Source: Morinoia aosen
Lineage: Eukaryota > Arthropoda > Malacostraca > Amphipoda > Talitridae
Direction: 5' to 3'
DNA: 64,000 bases
Assembly (NCBI GenBank): GCA_030386875.1
Contig: CM059577.1
Coordinates: 23,819,038-23,883,037 of the forward strand
Positions 6,346-59,660 of this stretch are shown here, one piece after another (the stretch's first letter is position 1; each line of letters opens with the position of its first letter). The notes below the pieces were generated by a model. It had not been told where the DNA came from, searched no databases, and saw nothing but the letters and a program-made list of their open reading frames with translations. Both the position numbers and the translations under genes were made by a program.

Positions 6346-6999
6346 ACACCCATGTACATCAAAACAAACTACATGAGGACTGGACAGTCAATGAGTGAGC
6401 ACAAGATTTTAATAGTATTTCTGAAATTCAAAATGTATGGAGCATATCCCAGAAGTCTCGCACCGTCCAGGTTCTTATAAAAATACATATCAACATATAT
6501 ATATAATTCTTGACCGACAGAGCCGGATGTTGCCCCCATCTCTTCTAGACATAAAACCAATTAAACTTTTTTTTGTACCGATACTTTCTCATCCATATCA
6601 GTTCTAATCTGAAACATAAAAAAGGAATAAAATTATTCTATGGTGTGTGATTTGTGGGACCCCCTGTACAAAAATTTTCGTACACTTCCTTCTTTGATGC
6701 AAGACACGATCGACGGCCACCGCAACACACACGCTGTTCTCCGCAGTCAACTGCGGCCAAACTCTACCAAATGTGACCGAACGACGTACGATGGTTGTCG
6801 AACTTCAGAAGTGAATCTGGGCAGTTTTTTGTTTGAAATTTCTAACTGAAACTCGTCAACAGTGCGTGAAAGATTGTCAAGTTTCATTTCTTTTTATCAA
6901 ACATTTTTTTAAATAAAATATGTAAAATGAAAAAAAATGTTGAAGGGCTTCATCTTGAAGATTCATGTTTCATATTACTACAACTTTCATAAGAAAGAA
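6346..6999. other. unrecognised DNA
   Basis: A 69-codon open frame at 6640-6849 (plus strand) matches nothing I recognise. Its 6650-6800 stretch is locally GC-rich and may be an old repeat. Otherwise nothing is supported. Confidence 0.4.
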
Positions 7000-7454
7000 A
7001 GAAAAACTTTTGAAAGAAAGAAAAACTTTATTTCCAATAGAGATTGTACAATATTACAATCATTGGTTTTTAAATATCTTAAAGTTAATACACTTAGATG
7101 ATACACACACATGAGTCTTGTAATACCCATGTCACTAGTCGAAAAGAAATGATTGAGGGCAATGTACTCCTAATCTTGCTTTAATCTACATTTGATAATA
7201 CATGTAATGATAATTATAAGAGATAACACAATTTCATGGACGATGCATTTTCATTGTGGGGTGAAAACACTTTTGACAGTTTACATGTACATGACGTAAA
7301 ACTTCGCAATTATTGATGCCAGGAAATAATATATGAATCGCTTGTTTCGGCCAATGTTCAAAAGTGTCATGTTAAGGAAGCATGAAAAAAAATATATAGA
7401 TACATATCCATATACATATATATACGTACATATACATATATATATTGTACATAC
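7000..7454 (-). mobile_element. LINE-like 3' untranslated tail, minus strand
   Basis: Read on the minus strand this ends in ATTGGAAATAAAG (complement at about 7025-7037) followed by TTTTTCTTTCTTTC repeats, a typical non-LTR retrotransposon end with polyadenylation signal and short microsatellite tail. The high-coordinate end (7388-7450) is an ATAC/ATATAC microsatellite abutting the LTR of the gypsy fossil. A similar microsatellite lies on the other side of that fossil at 10200-10290. This suggests one LINE 3' UTR split by the gypsy insertion. The assignment to the LINE at 10463-11670 is inference. Confidence 0.45.
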
Positions 7455-7859
7455 TGTAATATCGCTATTTTCAGGACGACATTAGGTTCGTATAGCAGGA
7501 AGCTTTAACTTCAATTCGCCTAGCCGAATACCAGGCAGGAGCACATGAAACGCGCAGCAGGACTTCTAGTAATGTACTGACTCTCAAAGGGACACACATG
7601 CCTTAAGACTAGAGCGCCCCCGGAAGTTAAACGAAGCCCTTCCGATAAGAGCACAACACGGCGGCATCCATCGGTTGCGTTTATGACACTTCCGCCGGTG
7701 ACCGCGATATCCCAAACCAAGCACGATAAGGACATCCTGTGAGCCTGCCATGCCAGGCCCACAACAATGATCTTCCGGGACTCGTAAACCTAGGCCTCCG
7801 GAACTCTTACTTACAAAACCAGTGTCACACTATAACGATGCATATTTTAATATATAACA
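7455..7859 (-). repeat. LTR (3' LTR) of the gypsy fossil
   Basis: The boundaries are inferred from the canonical TG...CA ends (TGTTATATATT... at 7859 descending to ...GATATTACA at 7455) and from the purine-rich tract directly upstream on the minus strand. The length of about 405 bp is ordinary for Ty3/gypsy. There is no partner LTR in the window to confirm the ends. Confidence 0.6.
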
Positions 7860-7917: not shown

Positions 7918-10165
7918 TCACGTAACAGGTTTAGTTAATCTACCTGATCTACGAGGTTCATTTTGCACAGGTGAGCTGCCAACAGGCTGAAAAGCAGGAG
8001 TCTCTGCTGCCCCACTCCCGGCAGATTCCAAACTACTGTGCAACAGCTGATTTGAATGTCTCTTCCAGATTACATATAATGCTAATATTTGAACATGAAA
8101 GATATTAACAGCAACTTTACTAACAATAATTACCTTCAACCACTTGGGACCATTTCTTAAATTCAGAGCAAGAACATGATCACCGACATCAAATTGAGTT
8201 ACATACATAGGCTTAGACCTGGACACAGAAAATTTAGGATGAACTCTATCTTTGAAAGTAACAAATTTACGATTGTTCAGGGCAACAGAGGGAGCAATTT
8301 TTTTAACACTATGCGGAATACAATGCGATTGAAATAATGCTTTTGCTAGACAGGATTTGAACGATTCGGAAGAAGAGAGTTTTTTCAACAAGTCCGTAAT
8401 GACTCTTACCCCCCTCTCAGCTTGACCATTGCTTGCTGGAGAGTAGGGCGGAGGTGTGAGCTGCTCAATGCAGTTGGAAATAAGAAAATCTTTAAAGTCT
8501 TGAGATGAAAAGTTAAGTTAGAAGCATTGTCACTTACGAGCACATCACACAACCCGTTTCTGCTGAAAATCATTCTCAACGCATCGACAGTATCTGACAC
8601 ACTCGTGGATGGTATCACTTCGCATTCAATATATTTAGATAATGCATCTACAGCAATGAAAACAATTTTATTCTCGTAGAAAAAGTGATCGACATGAATG
8701 CGTTCAAAAGGACGAGAAGGAGTGGGCCATTCTACATTTCTAGACTAAGGTTTTGCTCGATTTAATTGACATTGGGGACAACATTTTACGATGTCTTCAA
8801 TAGTTTTGAAATCAAATAACAGATCTGGCCAACGATTTCATGCCACAAATGCCAGGATGTCCATCATGAAATGTTTCAAGGACTAAACTACGCAATGACT
8901 TGGGGATAAAAACCCCTTCCTTATAAAGTATACAACCTTTCATGATGGTCATCTGAGGTAGCAGGTTCTTAAATTTAGACAAATTAGGATTAGGTTTAGG
9001 AGGCATGCCAAACTTTATGTATTGTTTAAGTTGGCATAGTTCGCTATCCATATCAGTATGAGTTTTTATGTTTTCACACGTGACAGGAATTTTATCAAGA
9101 GAGTTCACAGCAAAAATCATTTCGTACGGTTCTAGCTCTTTTACAGTCGTGGGTAGTGGCAGCCTACTGAGACAATCGCTATTGACGTTACATTTACCTT
9201 TCGAATAGCTGAAAACATAGTCAAACTGGGAAAGTCTGAGAGCCCATCTTTGAATTCGAGCGGAACAGTTGAGAGGTACACCCTTGTTATGTGCAAAAAG
9301 TTTACAAAAAGGTTTTTGATCATTATGGATAATGAACTTAGCACCAAGTAGAAATTTTTTGAATTTCTCCACGCCAAAAACAACACTAAGGCTCTCTCTT
9401 TCAATTTTAGAGTTGTTTTGTTCTGCATTATTTAGAGATCTCGAAGCAAATTGAACAGGACACAAATCATGAGAAGGACTAGCGCGTTGCATGAGTATGG
9501 CAGCAACTCCATAACCCGAACTATCAGTTTCAAGAAGAGTTTCATGGTTGGGATCAAACAACTTTAGAGGTTTATGCGAACGAAAGATGCCTTTGATTTT
9601 CTGGACACTTTTATCCTGTTCTGGAGTCCACCGGAACTGTACATTTTTAAGCAGCGAATACAGAGGATGCATGACATTAGAAAAGTTGGGTACAAAACGA
9701 CTATAGAAATTACACAATCCGATGAAAGCTTGTAACTGTTTGAGGTTTTCAGGAACAGGAGCATTGAGAATAGCTTCTACTTTCTCAGAGTTAGGGTGAA
9801 CACCCTTTTTATCGAAAACGTACCTTAGATAAAACACACGATCAGTTAGAGAGGCCCATTTAGATAGATTTAAGCGAATTCCAGCATTTTTAAGGATAGA
9901 CAGGACTTTGTCAAGAACTTCCAAATGAGCATCATATGGAGAGGTCAAAATGAGTAGATCATCCTGGTACACAATGATGTTATCGATGCCAGAAAGAGTC
10001 CTATTCATGAACGCTTGAAAAATGCCGGAGCTTGCACGTAAACCATAGGGTAAGTAATTGTACTTAAATAGACCTTCAGAGGTGTTAATGGTCGTAACTT
10101 TCTTTGATTCTTCGTCCAACGGAATTTGCAAAAACGCGTTAGACAAATCAATTTTTGAGAAAAAC
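7918..10165 (-). pseudogene. gypsy pol relic: reverse transcriptase, RNase H, integrase
   Basis: Reverse transcriptase and RNase H occupy roughly 9100-10165 and integrase roughly 7950-8900. Family motifs seen are SKIDLSNAFLQIPL, LPYGL and YQDDLLI in reverse transcriptase. The integrase zinc-binding region begins around FHDGHPGICG, and a basic RRSGRLTK tail is present at the end. In life the polyprotein copies the element's RNA to DNA and integrates it. This copy is a defective fossil and is reported only as such. Family assignment to Ty3/gypsy is firm; the lineage within it is not determined. Confidence 0.9.
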
Positions 10166-10170
10166 TTAGC

Positions 10171-10462
10171 GTCTCCTTTATTACTCTAGTGCATCTTTAT
10201 CTACTCTAGTGCACACAGGTGTACGTGCACATATACACACCCATATGCGCACATACACCTATATACGTATACACATATACAAGTAAGCATGTTTGCAAAT
10301 GACAACGTATAGGCGGTCAAATCATAATACCTACGCATACTTCAAAACTGTTGTGTGATGTCTTGAATTTCAAGACAATGATCGGGGGAGATTGTTCAGT
10401 AATGGAGATACCTGGCAAATGAGATTCATCAATACTTATTCAGTATTTTCTGTAACTAAGAA
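10171..10462 (-). other. probable LINE 3' UTR start with CA/TA microsatellite
   Basis: The sequence follows the LINE stop codon on the minus strand. At 10200-10290 there is an imperfect CA/TA microsatellite (CACATATACACACC and variants). It ends where gypsy homology begins. Confidence 0.4.
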
Positions 10463-18556: not shown

Positions 18557-21128
18557 TAAAAAGTCCTCTACTATTACTATATTAAGTCCTCTACTATTAC
18601 TATATTAAGTCCTCTACTATTACTATATCAAGTCCTCTGCTATTACTATATCAAGTCCTCTACTATTACTATATTAAGTCCTCTACTATTACTATATTAA
18701 GTCCTCTACTATTACTATATCAAGTCCTCTGCTATTACTATATCAAGTCCTCTACTATTTCTATATTTAGTCCTTTACTATTACTATATTTAGTCCTCTA
18801 CTATTACTATACTAAGTCCTCTACTATTACTATATTAAGTCCTTTACTATTACTATATTATGTCCTCTACTATTACTATATTAAGTCCTCTACTATTACT
18901 ATATTAAGTCCTCTACTATTACTATATCAAGTCCTCTGCTATTACTATATCAAGTCCTCTACTATTACTATATTTAGTCCTTTACTATTACTATATTTAG
19001 TCCTCTACTATTACTATATTAAGTCCTCTACTGTTACTATATTAAGTCCTTCACTATTACTATATTATGTCCTCTACTATTACTATATTAAGTCCTCTAC
19101 TATTACTATATCAAGTCCTCTACTATTACTATATTTAGTCCTTTACTATTACTCTATTTAGTCCTCTACTATTACTATATTAAGTCCTCTACTATTACTA
19201 TATTAAGTCCTTTACTATTACTATATTATGTCCTCTACTATTACTATATTAATTCCTCTACTATTACTTTATTAAGTCCTCTACTATTACTATACTAAGT
19301 CCTCTACTATTACTATATTAAGTCCTCTACAATTACTATATCAAGTCCTCTGCTATTACTATATCAAGTCCTCTGCTATTACTATATCAAGTCCTCCACT
19401 ATTACTACATTAAGTCCTCTACTATTACTATATTAAGTCCTCTACTATTACTACATTAAGTCCTCTACTATTACTATATCAAGTCCTCTACTATGACTAT
19501 ATTATGTCCTCTACTATTACTATATTAAGTCCTTTACTATTACTATATTATGTCCTCTACTATTACTATATTAAGTCCTTTACTATTACTATATTATGTC
19601 CTCTACCATTACTATATTATGTTCTCTACTATTACTATATCAAGTCCTCTGCTATTACTATATCAAGTCCTCTACTATTACTATATTTAGTCCTTTACTA
19701 TTACTATATCAAGTCCTCTACTATTTCTATATAAAGTCCTCTACTATTACTATATCAAGTCCTCTACTATTACTATGTCAAGTCCTCTACTATTACTATA
19801 TCAAGTCCTCTACTATTACTATATCAAGTCCTTTACTATTACTATATTTAGTCCTCTACTATTACTATATTAAGTCCTCTACTATTACTATATCAAGTCC
19901 TCTACTATTACTATATCAAGTCCTCTGCTATTACTATATCAAGTCCTCCACTATTACTACATTAAGTCCTCTACTATTACTACATTAAGTCCTCTACTAT
20001 TACTATATCAAGTCCTCTACTATTACTATATCAAGTCCTCTGCTATTACTATATCAAGTCCTCCACTTTTACTACATTAAGTCCTCTACTATTACTACAT
20101 TAAGTCCTCTACTATTACTATATCAAGTCCTCTACTATGACTATATTATGTCCTCTACTATTATTATATTAAGTCCTTTACTATTACTATATTATGTCCT
20201 CTATTATTACTATATTTAGTCCATTACTATTACTATATTATGTCCTCTACTATTACTACATTAAGTACTCTACTATTACTATATTAAGTCTTCTACTATT
20301 ACTATATTAAATCCTCCACTATTACTATATTAAGTCCTCTACTATTGCTATATTAAGTCCTTTACTATTACTATATTATGTCCTCTACTATTACTATGTT
20401 TAGTCCTTTACTATTACTATATTATGTTCTCTACTATTACTATATTTAGTCCTCTACTATTAATATATTAAGTCCTCTACTATTACTATATTAAGTCCTT
20501 TACTATTACTATATTATGCCCTCTACTATTACTATATTTAATCCTCTACTATTACTATATTAAGTCCTCTACTATTACTATATTAAGCCCTCTACTATTA
20601 CTATATTAAGTCCTCTACTATTACTATATTTAGTCCTTTACTGTTACTATATTATGTATTATGTCCTCTACTATTACTATATTAAGTCCTCTACTATTAC
20701 TATATAATTTCCTCTACTATTACTATATTAAGTACTCTACTATTACTACATTAAGTCCTTTACTATTACTATATTAAGTCCTCTACTATTACTATATTAA
20801 GTCCTCTACTATTACTATATTAAGTCCTCTACTATTACTATATTAAGTCCTCTACTATTACTATATTAATTCCTTTACTATTACTATATTATGTCCTCTA
20901 CTATTACTACATTAAGTCCTTTACTATTACTATATTAAGTCCTCTACTATTACTATATTAAGTCCTCTACTATTAATATATTAAGTCCTCTACCATTACT
21001 CTATTAAGTCCTCTACTATTACTATATTAATTCCTTTACTATTACTATATTATGTCCTCTACTATTACTATATTTAGTCCTTTACTACTACTATATTATG
21101 TCCTCTACTATTACTATCTTAAGGCCTC
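18557..21128. repeat. 23-bp satellite, about 112 copies (2.6 kb)
   Basis: The unit is TAAGTCCTCTACTATTACTATAT. Variants at fixed positions (TCAAG, TTTAG or TTATG for TTAAG; CTTT for CTCT; GCTATT for ACTATT; CTACAT for CTATAT) recur in multi-unit groups, evidence of block duplication. Because 23 is not divisible by three, open frames (130 codons at 19596-19988) rotate through all registers and are not genes. Confidence 0.97.
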
Positions 21129-21842
21129 CACTACAATTATTTCAAAAACAGTCCCGGTAAAATTAATGTTAGCTTTGCTAAAGGTTATGTCTGCACCGAC
21201 AACTGGTAGCATTATTTACCATTTGTGGCCATAAGCTGGGCACTACAGCAGGGAGCCCCCCAGCAAAAAATGTACTCATCCTTTGACAAACGATTACTGA
21301 TACATAGTATCTGTTCTTGTTTTTTCATGTGAAGCAAAGTTTCTATCATGGCATTAAATTCTCTAAGTTTCATGCCATTTTTATGAACTTATTAAACTTT
21401 TATTTGTGCAAATAAATACCCACATCAAAACAGAATCAAATATACTGAGCGGTCAAAGAATAAGTATATGTTTTTTGTCATATTCTGTACATTATCAACA
21501 TTTTAGCCTCTAAAATTTTTCGACGACATCTACGTTTCTTGGCGACACTACTCGTAAAAAGAACTTATGTCCTTTTATTATAACTGAAAGTAATGAAGAG
21601 TGACTTTCTAACATTTTTCCTACTTGAATTAGGAGATGAGAGGATTATTAGAGAAGCCATTGCATTTTGTTCCTCTCCCTCACGTACCTCCATACAATTT
21701 TTCTTCTTATGCGACATGGGCCTGAAAATTCTACGCCACCAAACCCAGTCTCGCTTTTTCGCTGAGGCATCGATGAATTTAGCCGCCCAGTGCAGAGGTT
21801 ATATTTGGGCGGCTGAAATTATAGATGCCCGGGCGAATAAGC
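21129..21842. other. unrecognised DNA
   Basis: An 85-codon frame at 21593-21850 shows no family resemblance. It overlaps the start of an old SINE fragment, so coding is doubtful. Confidence 0.4.
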
Positions 21843-24712: not shown

Positions 24713-25849
24713 GGAAAAATTTCCCCACTACCGCTGGGGTGTCTTTGAGGTGGTGCTCTCTCAGCCTTTCGGCGTAGGTGCCAGGTTGCCGTTGTTGTTC
24801 AAATGTTTGGGTAGGTACGTGATTTGCAAAGGTAGACTTGGTTTTGATCTGATATAGAGCTGGAGTTAACTTAATGTGTGACGTGCTATTGACTTGATGT
24901 CAAATTAAGAAGCTTCCAAGCTTAGTGCCCTGAACGGGGAATTATATCAGTCCGTTCATGCCTCTACAAGAGCGTTCTGTAGCGTGTTGCAGTGTCGGCC
25001 TTCGTTACGGTGATGTGGCTCGCGGCTAGTTCCGCTGGACCCAGTTCAGGCTAAGATCCTCTACCCTCAGCTGACTGCTGTTTCTCTGTTTATGATTTTG
25101 TGTGCCTGTGCTTTTATCTCATTACATTTATTTTGTAGACTATCGTGTCAAGTTTCCTACGGTGCTTCAAGCAACTAAATTACTATTAAGAAATCAACAT
25201 TGAAACTTAAACGTATTGATAATTAACAAGTCATTGAGACGTCAATTACTATAGAAGTCGTTCGTTTTCTTGATGGCCTAAGAAGCCTGGATCAGAACGA
25301 TCTTCGAACTCTACCTACTTTCTCGAGTATCGAAATCTCTTAACTGCCTGTCAGGCCGCACAGGGGTTGCCGAGCCTTTTGTGTTAGTTACCCCTAATCC
25401 CAAGTATTTTCTTTATGTGTCCAGCTCCCTGAATGCCGACTTGTCTGTTTCTCGGCGCTGATGTTGCGTCTGTGCATTTACTTTAGTTAGCCCTTAAATA
25501 TCATTTGTATTACATGTCGATATTCCAATGTTTCTTTGATTACCTAGCTAAATAAAACTAATATTTTAAATGCAATTTTGAGTGTTGTACCTTGTTATGC
25601 AGTAGCTCATGTGTGTACGCACTATTTTTGCAACAGAAAATAAATCACTATCTTTGTTAAAATATATCAGTGTATGTGATAGGGACTTCAAAGAGATTCA
25701 GCATTAAAGAAGTCACACCCTAAGGTCAAAAGATTTCCCTTCCTCCTTATTGACACAGGCTTGTCTCATACGACACCTCGCCTAATAAGGGGTTTAAGGA
25801 GCCATCTTGGTAGGACGAACTGTATTGCATAGTTGGTCGATTAGGAAGA
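24713..25849. other. unrecognised mixed-composition DNA
   Basis: About 1.1 kb without a supported gene. AAATAAAACTAA near 25550 could be a polyadenylation signal but has no associated frame. Confidence 0.4.
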
Positions 25850-26215
25850 CGTTGTCGCAGTTCGGCACTAACAGAGTTCACTTCTGTTGCCCTAGCGGTT
25901 TCATACGGCGCAGGCAGTTGCTCGTCTTCCTAACGGTACCGCCGTAGTTCGGCACAAAATGGAATTTACTTCTGTTGCCCTAGCGGACTGAACACGGCGT
26001 AGGCGGTACCCACACTCACACATCAGTCTAGCGGTGCCAACGTAGTTCGGCACAAAACAGAAATAACCTCTGTTGCCCTAGCGGACTGAATACGGCGCAG
26101 GTGGTACCCACACAAACCTCACCCCACACACACGACGGTAACGCCGTAGTTCGGCACTAACAGAAATTACTTCTGTTGCCCTAGCGGACTGATTACGGCG
26201 TAGGCGGTACCCACA
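25850..26215. repeat. four-copy structured repeat with nested dyads
   Basis: A core of about 70 bp (GTAGTTCGGCAC ... TTCTGTTGCCCTAGCGG ... TACGGCG) begins near 25856, 25942, 26040 and 26142. Within the core, GGCACTAACAGAA pairs with TTCTGTTGCC (best in copy 4). Outside it, each copy is enclosed by its own inverted arms: AGGAAGACG/CGTCTTCCT around copy 1, GGTACCGCC/GGCGGTACC around copy 2, and GGTGCCA/TGGTACC around copy 3 (with one G-U pair). Spacers differ, so the dyads outlast the sequence. No protein frame. Confidence 0.8.
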
Positions 26216-26353
26216 CGAACCTCAGGAAAGGCAGCTGCGAAGAAAAGCTAGCGCCCCGGACAAAGGTAGCTGCACAGAAGACAGCCCCCTTTTCCACGAA
26301 CCCTTACGTCGACCGCACGACGGTATTCGACACTGTCCTTCCTATTTTTTCGC
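26216..26353. other. spacer between the structured repeats and the MITE
   Basis: Short GC-richer stretch; nothing recognised. Confidence 0.4.
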
Positions 26354-26357
26354 TTAA

Positions 26358-26579
26358 CCCTTTAACGTCCGAATTTTTGTACTCATATTACCGTTAACAC
26401 AACCACCGTCACTAAACTGGCGCTGGCATCTGGCAGTCACCGATATCAGGATGGGATAAGAACTGCCACTCGGCAGAGAACTTCAAAGAACACATTAGGG
26501 AACTAATTGAATAAGAAATAAAATATATTGAAGGGGAATTTTGAAAGAGGACACTGGTGTCCTCTGGGGCGTTAAAGGG
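26358..26579. mobile_element. piggyBac-type MITE (222 bp)
   Basis: TTAA flanks both ends (26354-26357 and 26580-26583). The termini are inverted: CCCTTTAACG at the left, CGTTAAAGGG at the right. TTAA duplications with CCC-starting termini are the hallmark of the piggyBac superfamily. A 16-bp near-palindrome AGGACACTGGTGTCCT lies just inside the right end. No coding capacity. Confidence 0.8.
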
Positions 26580-26583
26580 TTAA

Positions 26584-50315: not shown

Positions 50316-50509
50316 AGAAAGTGGGGACCTAAAATGAAACAGTAAATTTGTACGTGGGACCATCCGGTAAATAGAACTGAAAATGAAAGGGAAATTGTAA
50401 CAAAATCGGAAGTTAAGTTGGTTCTGTAACTCACTGAGTTAATCAAAGTTGTCAGCGCGCATAGACGGCAATGAAATGAATTTTTATGTTTCAGCTTCTG
50501 AAATAAATT

Positions 50510-53500
50510 GTATCTCTTTACTAGTTAAATGAGTTGTATGCTCTAACTAGTGAAATGAGTTGTATGCTCTAACTAGTGAAGTGAGTTGTATGCTCTAACT
50601 AGTGAAATGAGTTGTATGCTCTAACTAGTGAAATAAGTTGTATGCTCTAACTAGTGAAATGAGTTGTATGCTCTAACTAGTGAAATGAGTTGTATGCTCT
50701 AACTAGTGAAATGAGTTGTATGCTCTAACTAGTGAAATAAGTTGTATGCTCTAACTAGTGAAGTGAGTTGTATGCTCTAACTAGTGAAATGAGTTGTATG
50801 CTCTAACTAGTGAAGTGAGTTCTATGCTCTAACTAGTGAAATGAGTTCTATGCTCTAACTAGTGAAATGAGTTGTATGCTCTAACTAGTGAAGTGAGTTG
50901 TATGCTCTAACTAGTGAAGTGAGTTGTATGCTCTAACTAGTGAAGTGAGTTGTATGCTCTAACTAGTGAAATGAGTTGTATGCTCTAACTAGTGAAATGA
51001 GTTCTATGCTCTAACTAGTGAAATGAGTTCTATGCTCTAACTAGTGAAATGAGTTGTATGCTCTAACTAGTGAAATGAGTTGTATGCTCTAACTAGTGAA
51101 ATGAGTTGTATGCTCTAACTAGTGAAATGAGTTGTATGCTCTAACTAGTGAAATGAGTTGTATGCTCTAACTAGTGAAATGAGTTGTATGCTCTAACTAG
51201 TGAAATGAGTTGTATGCTCTAACTAGTGAAATGAGTTGTATGCTCTAACTAGTGAAGTGAGTTGTATGCTCTAACTAGTGAAATGAGTTGTATGCTCTAA
51301 CTAGTGAAATGAGTTGTATGCTCTAACTAGTGAAATGAGTTGTATGCTCTAACTAGTGAAATAAGTTGTATGCTCTAACTAGTGAAATGAGTTGTATGCT
51401 CTAACTAGTGAAGTGAGTTGTATGCTCTAACTAGTGAAATGAGTTGTATGCTCTAACTAGTGAAATGAGTTGTATGCTCTAACTAGTGAAATGAGTTGTA
51501 TGCTCTAACTAGTGAAATAAGTTGTATGCTCTAACTAGTGAAATGAGTTGTATGCTCTAACTAGTGAAATGAGTTGTATGCTCTAACTAGTGAAATGAGT
51601 TGTATGCTCTAACTAGTGAAATGAGTTGTATGCTCTAACTAGTGAAATGAGTTGTATGCTCTAACTAGTGAAATGAGTTGTATGCTCTAACTAGTGAAAT
51701 GAGTTGTATGCTCTAACTAGTGAAATGAGTTGTATGCTCTAACTAGTGAAATAAGTTGTATGCTCTAACTAGTGAAATGAGTTGTATGCTCTAACTAGTG
51801 AAATGAGTTGTATGCTCTAACTAGTGAAATGAGTTGTATGCTCTAACTAGTGAAATGAGTTGTATGCTCTAACTAGTGAAATGAGTTGTATGCTCTAACT
51901 AGTGAAATGAGTTGTATGCTCTAACTAGTGAAATGAGTTGTATGCTCTAACTAGTGAAGTGAGTTGTATGCTCTAACTAGTGAAATGAGTTGTATGCTCT
52001 AACTAGTGAAATGAGTTCTATGCTCTAACTAGTGAAATGAGTTCTATGCTCTAACTAGTGAAATGAGTTGTATGCTCTAACTAGTGAAATGAGTTCTATG
52101 CTCTAACTAGTGAAATGAGTTCTATGCTCTAACTAGTGAAATGAGTTGTATGCTCTAACTAGTGAAATGAGTTGTATGCTCTAACTAGTGAAATGAGTTG
52201 TATGCTCTAACTAGTGAAATGAGTTCTATGCTCTAACTAGTGAAATGAGTTCTATGCTCTAACTAGTGAAATGAGTTCTATGCTCTAACTAGTGAAATGA
52301 GTTCTATGCTCTAACTAGTGAAATAAGTTGTATGCTCTAACTAGTGAAATGAGTTCTATGCTCTAACTATGGAAATAAGTTGTATGCTTTAACTAGTGAA
52401 ATAAGTTGTATGCTCTAACTAGTGAAATGAGTTCTATGCTCTAACTAGTGAAATAAGTTGTATGCTCTAACTAGTGAAATGAGTTCTATGCTCTAACTAG
52501 TGAAATGAGTTCTATGCTCTAACTAGTGAAATGAGTTCTATGCTCTAACTATGGAAATAAGTTGTATGCTGTAACTAGTGAAATAAGTTGTATGCTCTAA
52601 CTAGTGAAATGAGTTCTATGCTCTAACTAGTGAAATAAGTTGTATGCTCTAACTAGTGAAATAAATTCTATGCTCTAACTAGTGAAATGAGTTGTATGCT
52701 CTAACTAGTGAAATGAGTTGTATGCTCTAACTAGTGAAATAAGTTGTATGCTCTGACTAGTGAAATGAGTTGTATGCTCTAACTAGTGAAATGAGTTCTA
52801 TGCTCTAACTAGTGAAGTGAGTTGTATGCTCTAACTAGTGAAATGAGTTGTATGCTCTAACTAGTGAAATGAGTTCTATGCTCTAACTAGTGAAATGAGT
52901 TGTATGCTCTAACTAGTGAAATGAGTTGTATGCTCTAACTAGTGAAATAAGTTGTATGCTCTAACTAGTGAAATGAGTTGTATGCTCTAACTAGTGAAAT
53001 GAGTTGTATGCTCTAACTAGTGAAATGAGTTGTATGCTCTAACTAGTGAAATAAGTTGTATGCTCTGACTAGTGAAATGAGTTGTATGCTCTAACTAGTG
53101 AAATGAGTTCTATGCTCTAACTAGTGAAATGAGTTGTATGCTCTAACTAGTGAAATAAGTTGTATGCTCTAACTAGTGAAATGAGTTGTATGCTCTAACT
53201 AGTGAAATGAGTTGTATGCTCTAACTAGTGAAATGAGTTGTATGCTCTAACTAGTGAAATAAGTTGTATGCTCTGACTAGTGAAATGAGTTGTATGCTCT
53301 AACTAGTGAAATGAGTTCTATGCTCTAACTAGTGAAATAAGTTGTATGCTCTAACTAGTGAAATAAATTCTATGCTCTAACTAGTGAAATGAGTTGTATG
53401 CTCTAACTAGTGAAATGAGTTGTATGCTCTAACTAGTGAAATAAGTTGTATGCTCTGACTAGTGAAATGAGTTGTATGCTCTAACTAGTGAAATGAGTTG

Positions 53501-53525
53501 TATGCTCTAACTAGTGAAATGAGTT
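50510..53525. repeat. 26-bp satellite, about 116 copies (3.0 kb)
   Basis: The unit AAATGAGTTGTATGCTCTAA plus CTAGTG contains the palindrome ACTAGT. It is very homogeneous, with marker variants. A CTATGGAAATAAG unit occurs twice 182 bp (seven units) apart near 52365 and 52547. A CTCTGACTAG unit occurs at 52751, 53063, 53271 and 53453, spaced by 12, 8 and 7 units. GTTCTATG units cluster at 52010-52680. These patterns point to unequal exchange or replication slippage of multi-unit blocks. Confidence 0.98.
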
Positions 53526-54384
53526 AGTATATTCTTACTTATGTCTACACTCTCTACAAAAATGCTGCTAAAACGGTGTATATGAGTCTTAATTTATTGT
53601 ATAAAACGTAATCATTTAATTGAATTGCTAAATGAATTAATTAAGTAGTTTGCTAAATTTATTTTTAATTAATAACTTGAATTTTACATTAGTTATTTAA
53701 TTCATTATTTTATGTGCGCGCATCAAATAGTTCATGACTGCTCAAGCAGTAGAAAGTCTGAGCTGCTAGCATAATTAATTTAGGCTCCGGTACCTTTCGA
53801 AAACTTTTTATCATAATCTTTCTAATGTGGACAACTCACAAATGTGTATACCTGTCGCAATGTTACCCACGATTTGAATGTTATATTCGTACTCGTGAGG
53901 CGGTCAGGTCTCTGTCACAGGTACGCTCACCAAACATCCGACCATGCGTGCAAAAAAACGAACGACAAAAATGTACTCATAAATAAATCTACGATGCTTA
54001 TTATGAGGTCGTATGAGTATTGGAGGTGTGTTACTGTGTTATAAAGAAGAAGACATGCACGATTTTATCGTCCTAAATGTGAGATTCCTCAAACATTTTG
54101 ATATTATTAAATAATTATTTACTGTAATGTTTATTATCATGAAATAGTTGTTAATTACTCTCACATATTGATCTAATAAGACGAACACCTTCTCTTTTTC
54201 TTTCACTCAATTTTAGCAGCAAAGTTCAAACCCCAAACAATTTAGTTTCTAAATAATTTTGCATTTGTTTTGCTTTAACACGAGTTGTAGCCGATCCTGT
54301 CAATTTCCATCTCCTAGTTGACGTTCAGTCTGAAACAGGAATATCCTTTACTTGGATATTACACTCAGTTTGGTAACTTTCCTC
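53526..54384. other. unrecognised AT-rich DNA
   Basis: CTGTCACAGGTACGCTCACC at about 53917 distantly resembles the GTATC dyad family. No gene is supported. Confidence 0.4.
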
Positions 54385-58319: not shown

Positions 58320-59660
58320 GGAATTGGTCGTCTCGTATTACTCGCATAGTATTGCGTGTTTAGTATAGCTCGTATAGTATTGCGTGTTTGTTATAGCTCG
58401 TGTAGTATTGCGTGTTTGTTATAGCTCGTATAGTATTGCGCGTTTGTTATAGCTCGTATAGTATTGCGTGTTTGTTATAGCTCGTATAATATTGCGCATT
58501 TATTATAGGTCGTATAGTATTGCCTGTTTGTTATAGCTCGTATAGTATTGCGTGTTTGTTATAGCTCGTATATTATTGCGCATTTATTATAGGTCGTATA
58601 GTATTGCCTGTTTGTTATAGCTCGTATAGTATTGCCTGTTTGTTATAGCTCGTATAGTATTGCGTGTTTGTTATAGCTCGTATAATATTGCGCATTTATT
58701 ATAGGTCGTATAGTATTGCCTGTTTGTTATAGCTCGTATAGTATTGCGTGTTTGTTATAGCTCGTATAATATTGCGCATTTATTATAGGTCGTATAGTAT
58801 TGCCTGTTTGTTATAGCTCGTATAGTATTGCGTGTTTGTTATAGCTCGTATAATATTGCGCATTTATTATAGGTCGTATAGTATTGCTTGTTTGTTATAG
58901 CTCGTATAGTATTGCGTGTTTGTTATAGCTCGTATAATATTGCGCATTTATTATAGGTCGTATAGTATTGCCTGTTTGTTATAGCTCGTATAGTATTGCG
59001 TGTTTGTTATAGCTCGTATAATATTGCGCATTTATTATAGGTCGTATAGTATTGCTTGTTTGTTATAGCTCGTATAGTATTGCGTGTTTGTCATAGCTCG
59101 TATAATATTGCGCATTTATTATAGGTCGTATAGAATTGCTTGTTTGTTATAGCTCGTATAGTATTGCGTGTTTGTTATAGCTCGTATAATATTGCGCATT
59201 TATTATAGGTCGTATAGTATTGCTTGTTTGTTATAGCTCGTGTAGTATTGCGTGTTTGTTATAGCTCGTATAATATTGCGCATTTATTATAGGTCGTATA
59301 GTATTGCTTGTTTGTTATAGCTCGTGTAGTATTGCGTGTTTGTTATAGCTCGTATAATATTGCGCATTTATTATAGGTCGTATAGTATTGCTTGTTTGTT
59401 ATAGCTCGTGTAGTATTGCGTGTTTGTTATAGCTCGTATAATATTGCGCATTTATTATAGGTCGTATAGTATTGCTTGTTTGTTATAGCTCGTGTAGTAT
59501 TGCGTGTTTGTTATAGCTCGTGTAGTATTGCGTGTTTGTTATAGCTCGTATAATATTGCGCATTTATTATAGGTCGTATAGTATTGCGTGTTTGTTATAG
59601 CTCGTGTAGTATTGCGTGTTTGTTATAGCTCGTATAGTATAGCGTGTTTAACAATGCTCG
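58320..59660. repeat. 28-bp satellite organised in an 84-bp higher-order unit
   Basis: Three monomer types alternate: A ends GTATTGCGTGTTTG, B has ATAATATTGCGCATTTA, C has TTATAGGTCGTATAGTATTG followed by CCTG or CTTG. The order B-C-A repeats every 84 bp from about 58476 to 59590. C changes from CCTG to CTTG along the array and A gains CGTGTAG near the right. Both edges return to plain type-A monomers. Confidence 0.96.

Follow-up and report, generated by a model that had tools for sequence, protein, structure and literature searches.

Tandem units with changing stems and conserved internal loops in the LTR of a Gmr1-like Ty3 retrotransposon of Morinoia aosen, a candidate cis-acting RNA array

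The repeat array and its host element

The window analyzed here is a 64,000-nucleotide stretch of the genome of the amphipod Morinoia aosen (assembly GCA_030386875.1, contig CM059577.1, positions 23,819,038 to 23,883,037, forward strand). An initial annotation, made from the letters alone, had described a four-copy repeat with inverted outer arms around a conserved core. A repeat search of the window found the core in four copies at spacings of 88, 98, and 103, and the arms and cores quoted in the annotation are all in place, confirming that the repeat is real. Genome searches with two unit patterns, allowing at most two mismatches, gave 1,666 and 3,863 matching places, counts that may overlap and of which the first 100 each were listed. 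Rfam covariance models gave no match to the window at gathering scores and none to the LTR at E values up to 10, and an exact search of viral contigs with one loop motif returned 0 matches. Each copy was also folded singly on both strands, as the annotation had proposed. The folds beat dinucleotide shuffles, though moderately, with z-scores for copies 1 to 4 of -2.59, -1.40, -0.97, and -2.00 on the + strand and -2.03, -1.18, -1.16, and -1.86 on the - strand; the whole four-copy array scored -1.77.

Table 1. Features of the repeat locus in the window
Feature	Window positions	Strand	Sequence or observation
Solo LTR of Gmr1-like Ty3 retrotransposon	25349-26332	+ (sense)	TGTC...GACA, 984 bp; 54 distinct full-length copies match end to end
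Target-site copies flanking the solo LTR	25344-25348 (left); 26333-26337 (right)		CTGCC (left), CTGTC (right); one mismatch
Unit 1	25843-25931	+	P1 AGGAAGACG-TTGTC / GGCAG...CGTCTTCCT; P2 GGC/GCC; P3 AACAGA/TCTGTT
Unit 2	25935-26010	+	P1 GGTACCGCC/GGCGGTACC
Unit 3	26033-26108	+	P1 GGTGCCAAC/GGTGGTACC
Unit 4	26137-26211	+	P1 GGTAACGCC/GGCGGTACC
AATAAA	25639-25644	+	Near LTR 290 (LTR 288-290, 0-based) in about 42 of 54 copies
ATTAAA, candidate poly(A) signal	25703-25708	+	AATAAA/ATTAAA near LTR 354 in about 30 of 54 copies
ATG-depleted LTR part, putative R/U5 leader	25699-26332	+	Mean of 0.77 ATG per copy (sum of three bins) versus about 8.0 expected from composition

All four units lie inside the solo LTR (Table 1). 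Copies of this LTR occur elsewhere in the genome: in a search with the repeat region, 40 of 2,263 first-look candidates were scored, and the best 39 apart from the window copy are 93 to 95% identical to it. Three pairs of same-orientation matches among those scored lie 5.0 to 5.6 kb apart. The full sequence of one such pair (L009) has LTRs at 953 to 1948 and 6556 to 7545 with a single open gag-pol frame between them, and a primer-binding site, TGGCGCCCGAACAGGGAC, which is presumably of the tRNA-Lys type, follows five bases after the 5' LTR. The domains of the pol frame are, in order, Integrase_H2C2 (616 to 673), rve (689 to 783), RVT_1 (1145 to 1275), and RNase H (1340 to 1469), with a candidate protease motif, judged by eye, ahead of the integrase. 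In this one element examined, the integrase thus lies upstream of the reverse transcriptase in one pol frame, the order that distinguishes Gmr1-like Ty3 elements. TG...CA LTRs, a primer-binding site after the 5' LTR, and a short target duplication are all present. Perfect 5-bp duplications flank three other solo LTRs (ACTAC at L005, ATGGG at L040, and CTCGG at L041), and one full element (L011) has GACCG at both flanks. Since the predicted integrase precedes the reverse transcriptase and RNase H, the host is classed, by pol domain order, as a Gmr1-like Ty3 LTR retrotransposon, which is very abundant in this genome of ~2 Gb. The genome also gave 115 matches to the chitin-binding cuticle family, as befits an arthropod. 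Gmr1-like elements are reported in crustaceans, according to the portion of the source consulted (PMC3587641). With paired LTRs, a primer-binding site, pol, and target duplications accounted for, the guess that the repeats belong to a mobile element proved correct.

The window holds other repetitive features. A short TTAA-flanked element with inverted ends CCCTTTAACG and CGTTAAAGGG lies at 26354 to 26583, 21 bases past the solo LTR, and we take it to be like a piggyBac-type MITE. Another Ty3-like pol, on the - strand at 7918 to 10185, has the ordinary order of reverse transcriptase/RNase H and then integrase, as judged by eye from the reading frames. Minisatellites are very dense (18561 to 21133, 50499 to 53530, 58341 to 59649, and others), for example, 112 copies of 23 bp and 117 copies of 26 bp.

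Stems change between unit lineages while most of the loop is kept

Units were collected from 98 non-identical arrays, giving 332 units; a few arrays end with their fetched stretch. In the main family, A, most arrays hold four units, some hold three, and one (L064) holds five. A related LTR family, B, carries the same unit type in two units, B1 and B2, with four in L109; it comprises L077 and L079, whose matched stretches are 70 to 82% identical, and 21 further loci. The number of units per array therefore ranges from 2 to 5. At four places (C20:45453221/45453403, C2:36505866/36506048, C25:32955296/32955476, and C7:18292349/18292534), B1 hairpins were seen about 180 to 185 bases apart, as if the B1-B2 pair itself had been tandemly amplified. 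A tandem array on C1 and C9 (L081 to L101) matched a loose pattern yet gave no unit match in the unit search and was rejected as a homologue. It is a repeated sequence near chromosome ends (C1, about 51.9 to 55.9 Mb; C9, about 85.7 to 85.8 Mb), with some copies at steps of ~2.96 kb, and it holds a 35-base stretch with a loose likeness to the unit core.

After removal of identical rows and of rows with more than 12 gaps, the alignment contained 292 distinct rows, which were compared as six groups (A1, A2, A3, A4, B1, and B2) that are not independent of one another. From the outside inward, each unit has the outer helix P1, a large asymmetric internal loop, the short helix P2 (3 bp, GGC/GCC), and the hairpin P3 at its apex. 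The loop sequence is conserved on both strands, with GTAGTTC opposite CTARCGGA...ACGGCGTA. When the commonest bases of the six groups were compared, identity was 0.95 in the 5' loop strand and 0.95 and 0.93 at the ends of the 3' strand, with 0.70 in its middle, whereas the two P1 arms scored 0.61 and 0.65 and the P3 region 0.61. Relative to B1, the loop values were 0.97 (5' strand), 0.97 and 0.95 (3' strand ends), and 0.63 (middle), and the stem values were 0.40 and 0.49 (P1 arms) and 0.29 (P3). The paired parts thus vary between groups, and the unpaired strands are for the most part kept.

Group A1 departs from the common P1 register, since two of its nine columns are unpaired (C.T in 61 of 68 rows and A.G in 65 of 68). 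By pair count its 5' arm fits the 3' arms of all groups about equally, and its longer arms form a duplex of -18.5 kcal/mol. An additional helix of GTAGTTC with GGACTGA, seen in some single-sequence folds, was dropped, its 3' side being lost in A1 and in most of B1 as judged by eye. The alternative helix CGCCGTA/TACGGCG was rejected as well; 0.859 of its cells are paired, but it has double change at only one of nine pairs.

Compensatory change and tests of covariation

Across the 292 distinct units, double compensatory change (at least 5 rows) was found at seven of the nine P1 pairs, compared with 1 to 3 pairs when the partners were slid by 1 to 3 columns (two of these controls hold 8 and 7 pairs instead of nine). 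The corresponding figures for P2 were one of three pairs and none, and with P2 slid by -3, 0.90 of cells were also paired. Paired cells made up 89.8% of P1, more than in any other 9-bp helix that was scanned between the two arms, versus 27 to 55% in the slid controls. The arms were then exchanged between groups. For P1, no other assignment among the 720 possible by group equaled the true one by pair count, and by duplex energy a single one was as good, the exchange of A2 with A4, whose arms are nearly alike. For P3, 23 other assignments of 720 were as good; this helix was left out of the pair-by-pair count because its register differs between B1 and the other groups.

Individual pairs changed in the same manner. 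Six of the nine P1 pairs differ between B1 and B2, and at all six the commonest pair is Watson-Crick in both groups. In P1, an A-T pair of A2 and A4 is G-C in B2, and in P2 the latter group has AGC/GCT in 20 of 22 rows, an A-T replacing the G-C of the other groups. The initial annotation had reported a G-C pair turned into A-T on both sides between copies 2 and 3, and this holds at the level of groups, the commonest pair being A-T in A3 where A2 and A4 have G-C. The G.U pair that it noted in copy 3 is typical of unit type A3: at one P1 pair G.U predominates in A3 (47 of 56 rows), as it does at one in A1 (65 of 68), and no P1 pair has A.C as its commonest state. The mismatch that it noted in the outer arm of copy 4 is present also (A.G, columns 15 and 82) and is rare, with 2 cases among the 57 distinct last-unit rows.

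The same annotation took significant covariation among many copies as the mark of a selected hairpin. An R-scape-like G-test was run with average-product correction against two tree-based nulls. Across the 292 rows it found none of the pairs in P1 and P2 significant above phylogeny (best P1 pair, E about 27), and the top covarying pair overall, columns 8 and 32 (E about 1), lies outside the structure. Because the changes fall on few deep branches, this tree-aware test cannot separate them from shared descent. The selected hairpin is supported across unit lineages, by stem compensation with the loop kept, and not by the G-test. Within groups, a unit's own arms paired little or no better than those of another copy (0.1 to 0.9 kcal/mol, in mixed directions). 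We read this as neutral decay of copies under little or no pairing constraint after insertion, which gives no support for function.

B1 hairpins were listed at 156 places, merged from 100 among 133 matches and all 91 matches of a second pattern. Over all listed places, partner pairs were supported at three of four free pairs (P = 0.02 to 0.035), and over the 127 distinct strings among them, at two of four; one off-partner pair reached P = 0.005 (0.09 on distinct strings). This listing weakly favors the proposed pairing. P2 was not used here, since the search patterns bias it.

Two explanations without an RNA function bear on these results. The units could be an ordinary tandem repeat whose complementarity arose by chance and whose conservation reflects recent common descent, as the 93 to 95% likeness of the 39 best other copies, the modest single-copy z-scores, and the nonsignificant tree-aware test would allow. 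However, divergence between groups is uneven, with stems changing where most of the loop does not, and double change occurs at 7 of 9 P1 pairs; we regard this explanation as very improbable and already disfavored. Alternatively, a DNA or reverse-transcription process, such as template switching that perfects quasi-palindromes, might maintain the inverted repeats as structure without function. The element does replicate through reverse transcription, and the exchange of most of each arm that sets B1 apart from the other groups would come easily in this way. Such a process leaves unexplained the loop conservation (0.93 to 0.95), the single-pair compensations (G-C to A-T in A3, A-T to G-C in B2, and P2 of B2), and G.U as a common state, and we hold it to be quite unlikely.

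Position in the LTR, strand, and candidate roles

The distribution of ATG divides the LTR. In the 54 distinct full LTRs, which are related and thus represent about one ancestral sequence rather than 54 independent ones, the first 350 bases contain 7.87 ATG per copy versus 6.10 expected, whereas three successive bins after 350 contain 0.35, 0.33, and 0.09 versus 1.93, 5.07, and 1.04 expected. CAT in the same three bins numbers 1.33, 2.28, and 0.07. At 25-base resolution, ATG is kept in most copies in 8 of the first 14 bins, the last being 325 to 350, and in none beyond, while CAT is still kept in most copies at LTR bins 400, 475, and 550. The B loci (n = 21) are more weakly depleted, with 2.76 ATG in 401 bases versus 6.59 expected and 4.10 CAT. 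In L009 the gag ATG lies 106 bases past the 5' LTR. From these sequence features we infer that transcription starts at about LTR 335 to 355 and that R ends soon after. ATG depletion up to the LTR end, the downstream gag ATG, and the poly(A)-like signals would together place the units in U5, within the 5' leader of the sense RNA.

As to strand, the sense fold was better than the antisense fold by energy in A2 (P = 5e-5) and A3 (P = 5e-4; 22 units each), with no difference in A1, A4, B1, or B2; by z-score it was also better in A1 (P = 0.019) and B2 (P = 0.033). Counts of G.U and A.C in P1 and P2 were about equal in A2 (17 and 17), A4 (14 and 16), and B1 (9 and 11). At the three inner G-C pairs of the 156 listed B1 hairpins there were 73 G.U and 25 A.C (57 and 24 in the 127 distinct strings). 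These findings weakly suggest that the sense (+) strand carries the structure.

Enhancer or silencer repeats occur in other LTRs, and the units might likewise be tandem palindromic DNA sites, with the inverted arms as half-sites of a DNA-binding protein. That the copies are tandem in the LTR and vary in number from 2 to 5, that sense and antisense fold alike by energy in four of six groups, and that the R-scape-like test was not significant are consistent with this explanation. Yet the arms change in sequence (P1 identity to B1, 0.40 to 0.49) with pairing kept, which is hard to reconcile with a fixed protein site; conservation falls on the unpaired strands, and ATG depletion suggests that the units lie in the leader. 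DNA sites are therefore an unlikely explanation, if the least unlikely of the three considered. A cruciform in the DNA, as the initial annotation had suggested, would likewise be conceivable.

On balance, we think it probable that the repeated units are structured RNA modules arrayed in tandem in U5 of a Gmr1-like Ty3 LTR and acting in cis. As part of the 5' leader, the array would be transcribed into the genomic, or gag-pol, RNA and would act as RNA, the conserved internal loop being the putative binding site, the part that is recognized. Its most likely task would be to let Gag or a host protein recognize the genomic RNA, for packaging or dimerization, followed by export or translation of the long leader. 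Packaging or dimerization through Gag is our first choice by judgment, a tentative one; translation of the leader seems to us less likely, and its export slightly less so again. A bolder, and doubtful, reading is that of a novel RNA fold: a modular cis-element that duplicates itself would mark the genomic RNA of a major arthropod retrotransposon lineage, its conserved two-strand loop would be the active part (for a ligand, a protein, or catalysis), and tandem duplication would tune the number of modules. To our knowledge, cis-acting RNA signals of Ty3 elements are hardly known outside yeast and flies. With its thousands of natural copies and its clear stem and loop behavior, the repeated module offers a route to leader function (packaging, export, or translation), which could be approached through comparison of related elements together with structure probing.

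The host element shares with Gmr1-like Ty3 elements (Metaviridae) an integrase placed before the reverse transcriptase, TG...CA LTRs, and 5-bp target duplications; our search of the open-access literature turned up no description of structured tandem repeats in Gmr1-like LTRs. Retrozymes likewise have a structured RNA motif in their LTRs, where they carry hammerhead ribozymes, as described in the part of the source consulted (PMC4918200). The LTR described here differs in having neither a hammerhead nor any other Rfam family (E up to 10). The packaging and dimerization stem-loops of retroviruses are multiple hairpins placed between R and gag in the 5' leader, and the array resembles them in its several hairpins and, by its predicted position, in its place in the leader. 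Unlike those stem-loops, it is built of tandem paralogous units that vary in number and have large conserved internal loops, for which binding is putative. The constitutive transport element of simple retroviruses, with repeated conserved internal loops inside variable helices, is similar in its conserved repeated loops and variable helices, but it lies near the 3' end, whereas the array lies in what is probably U5.
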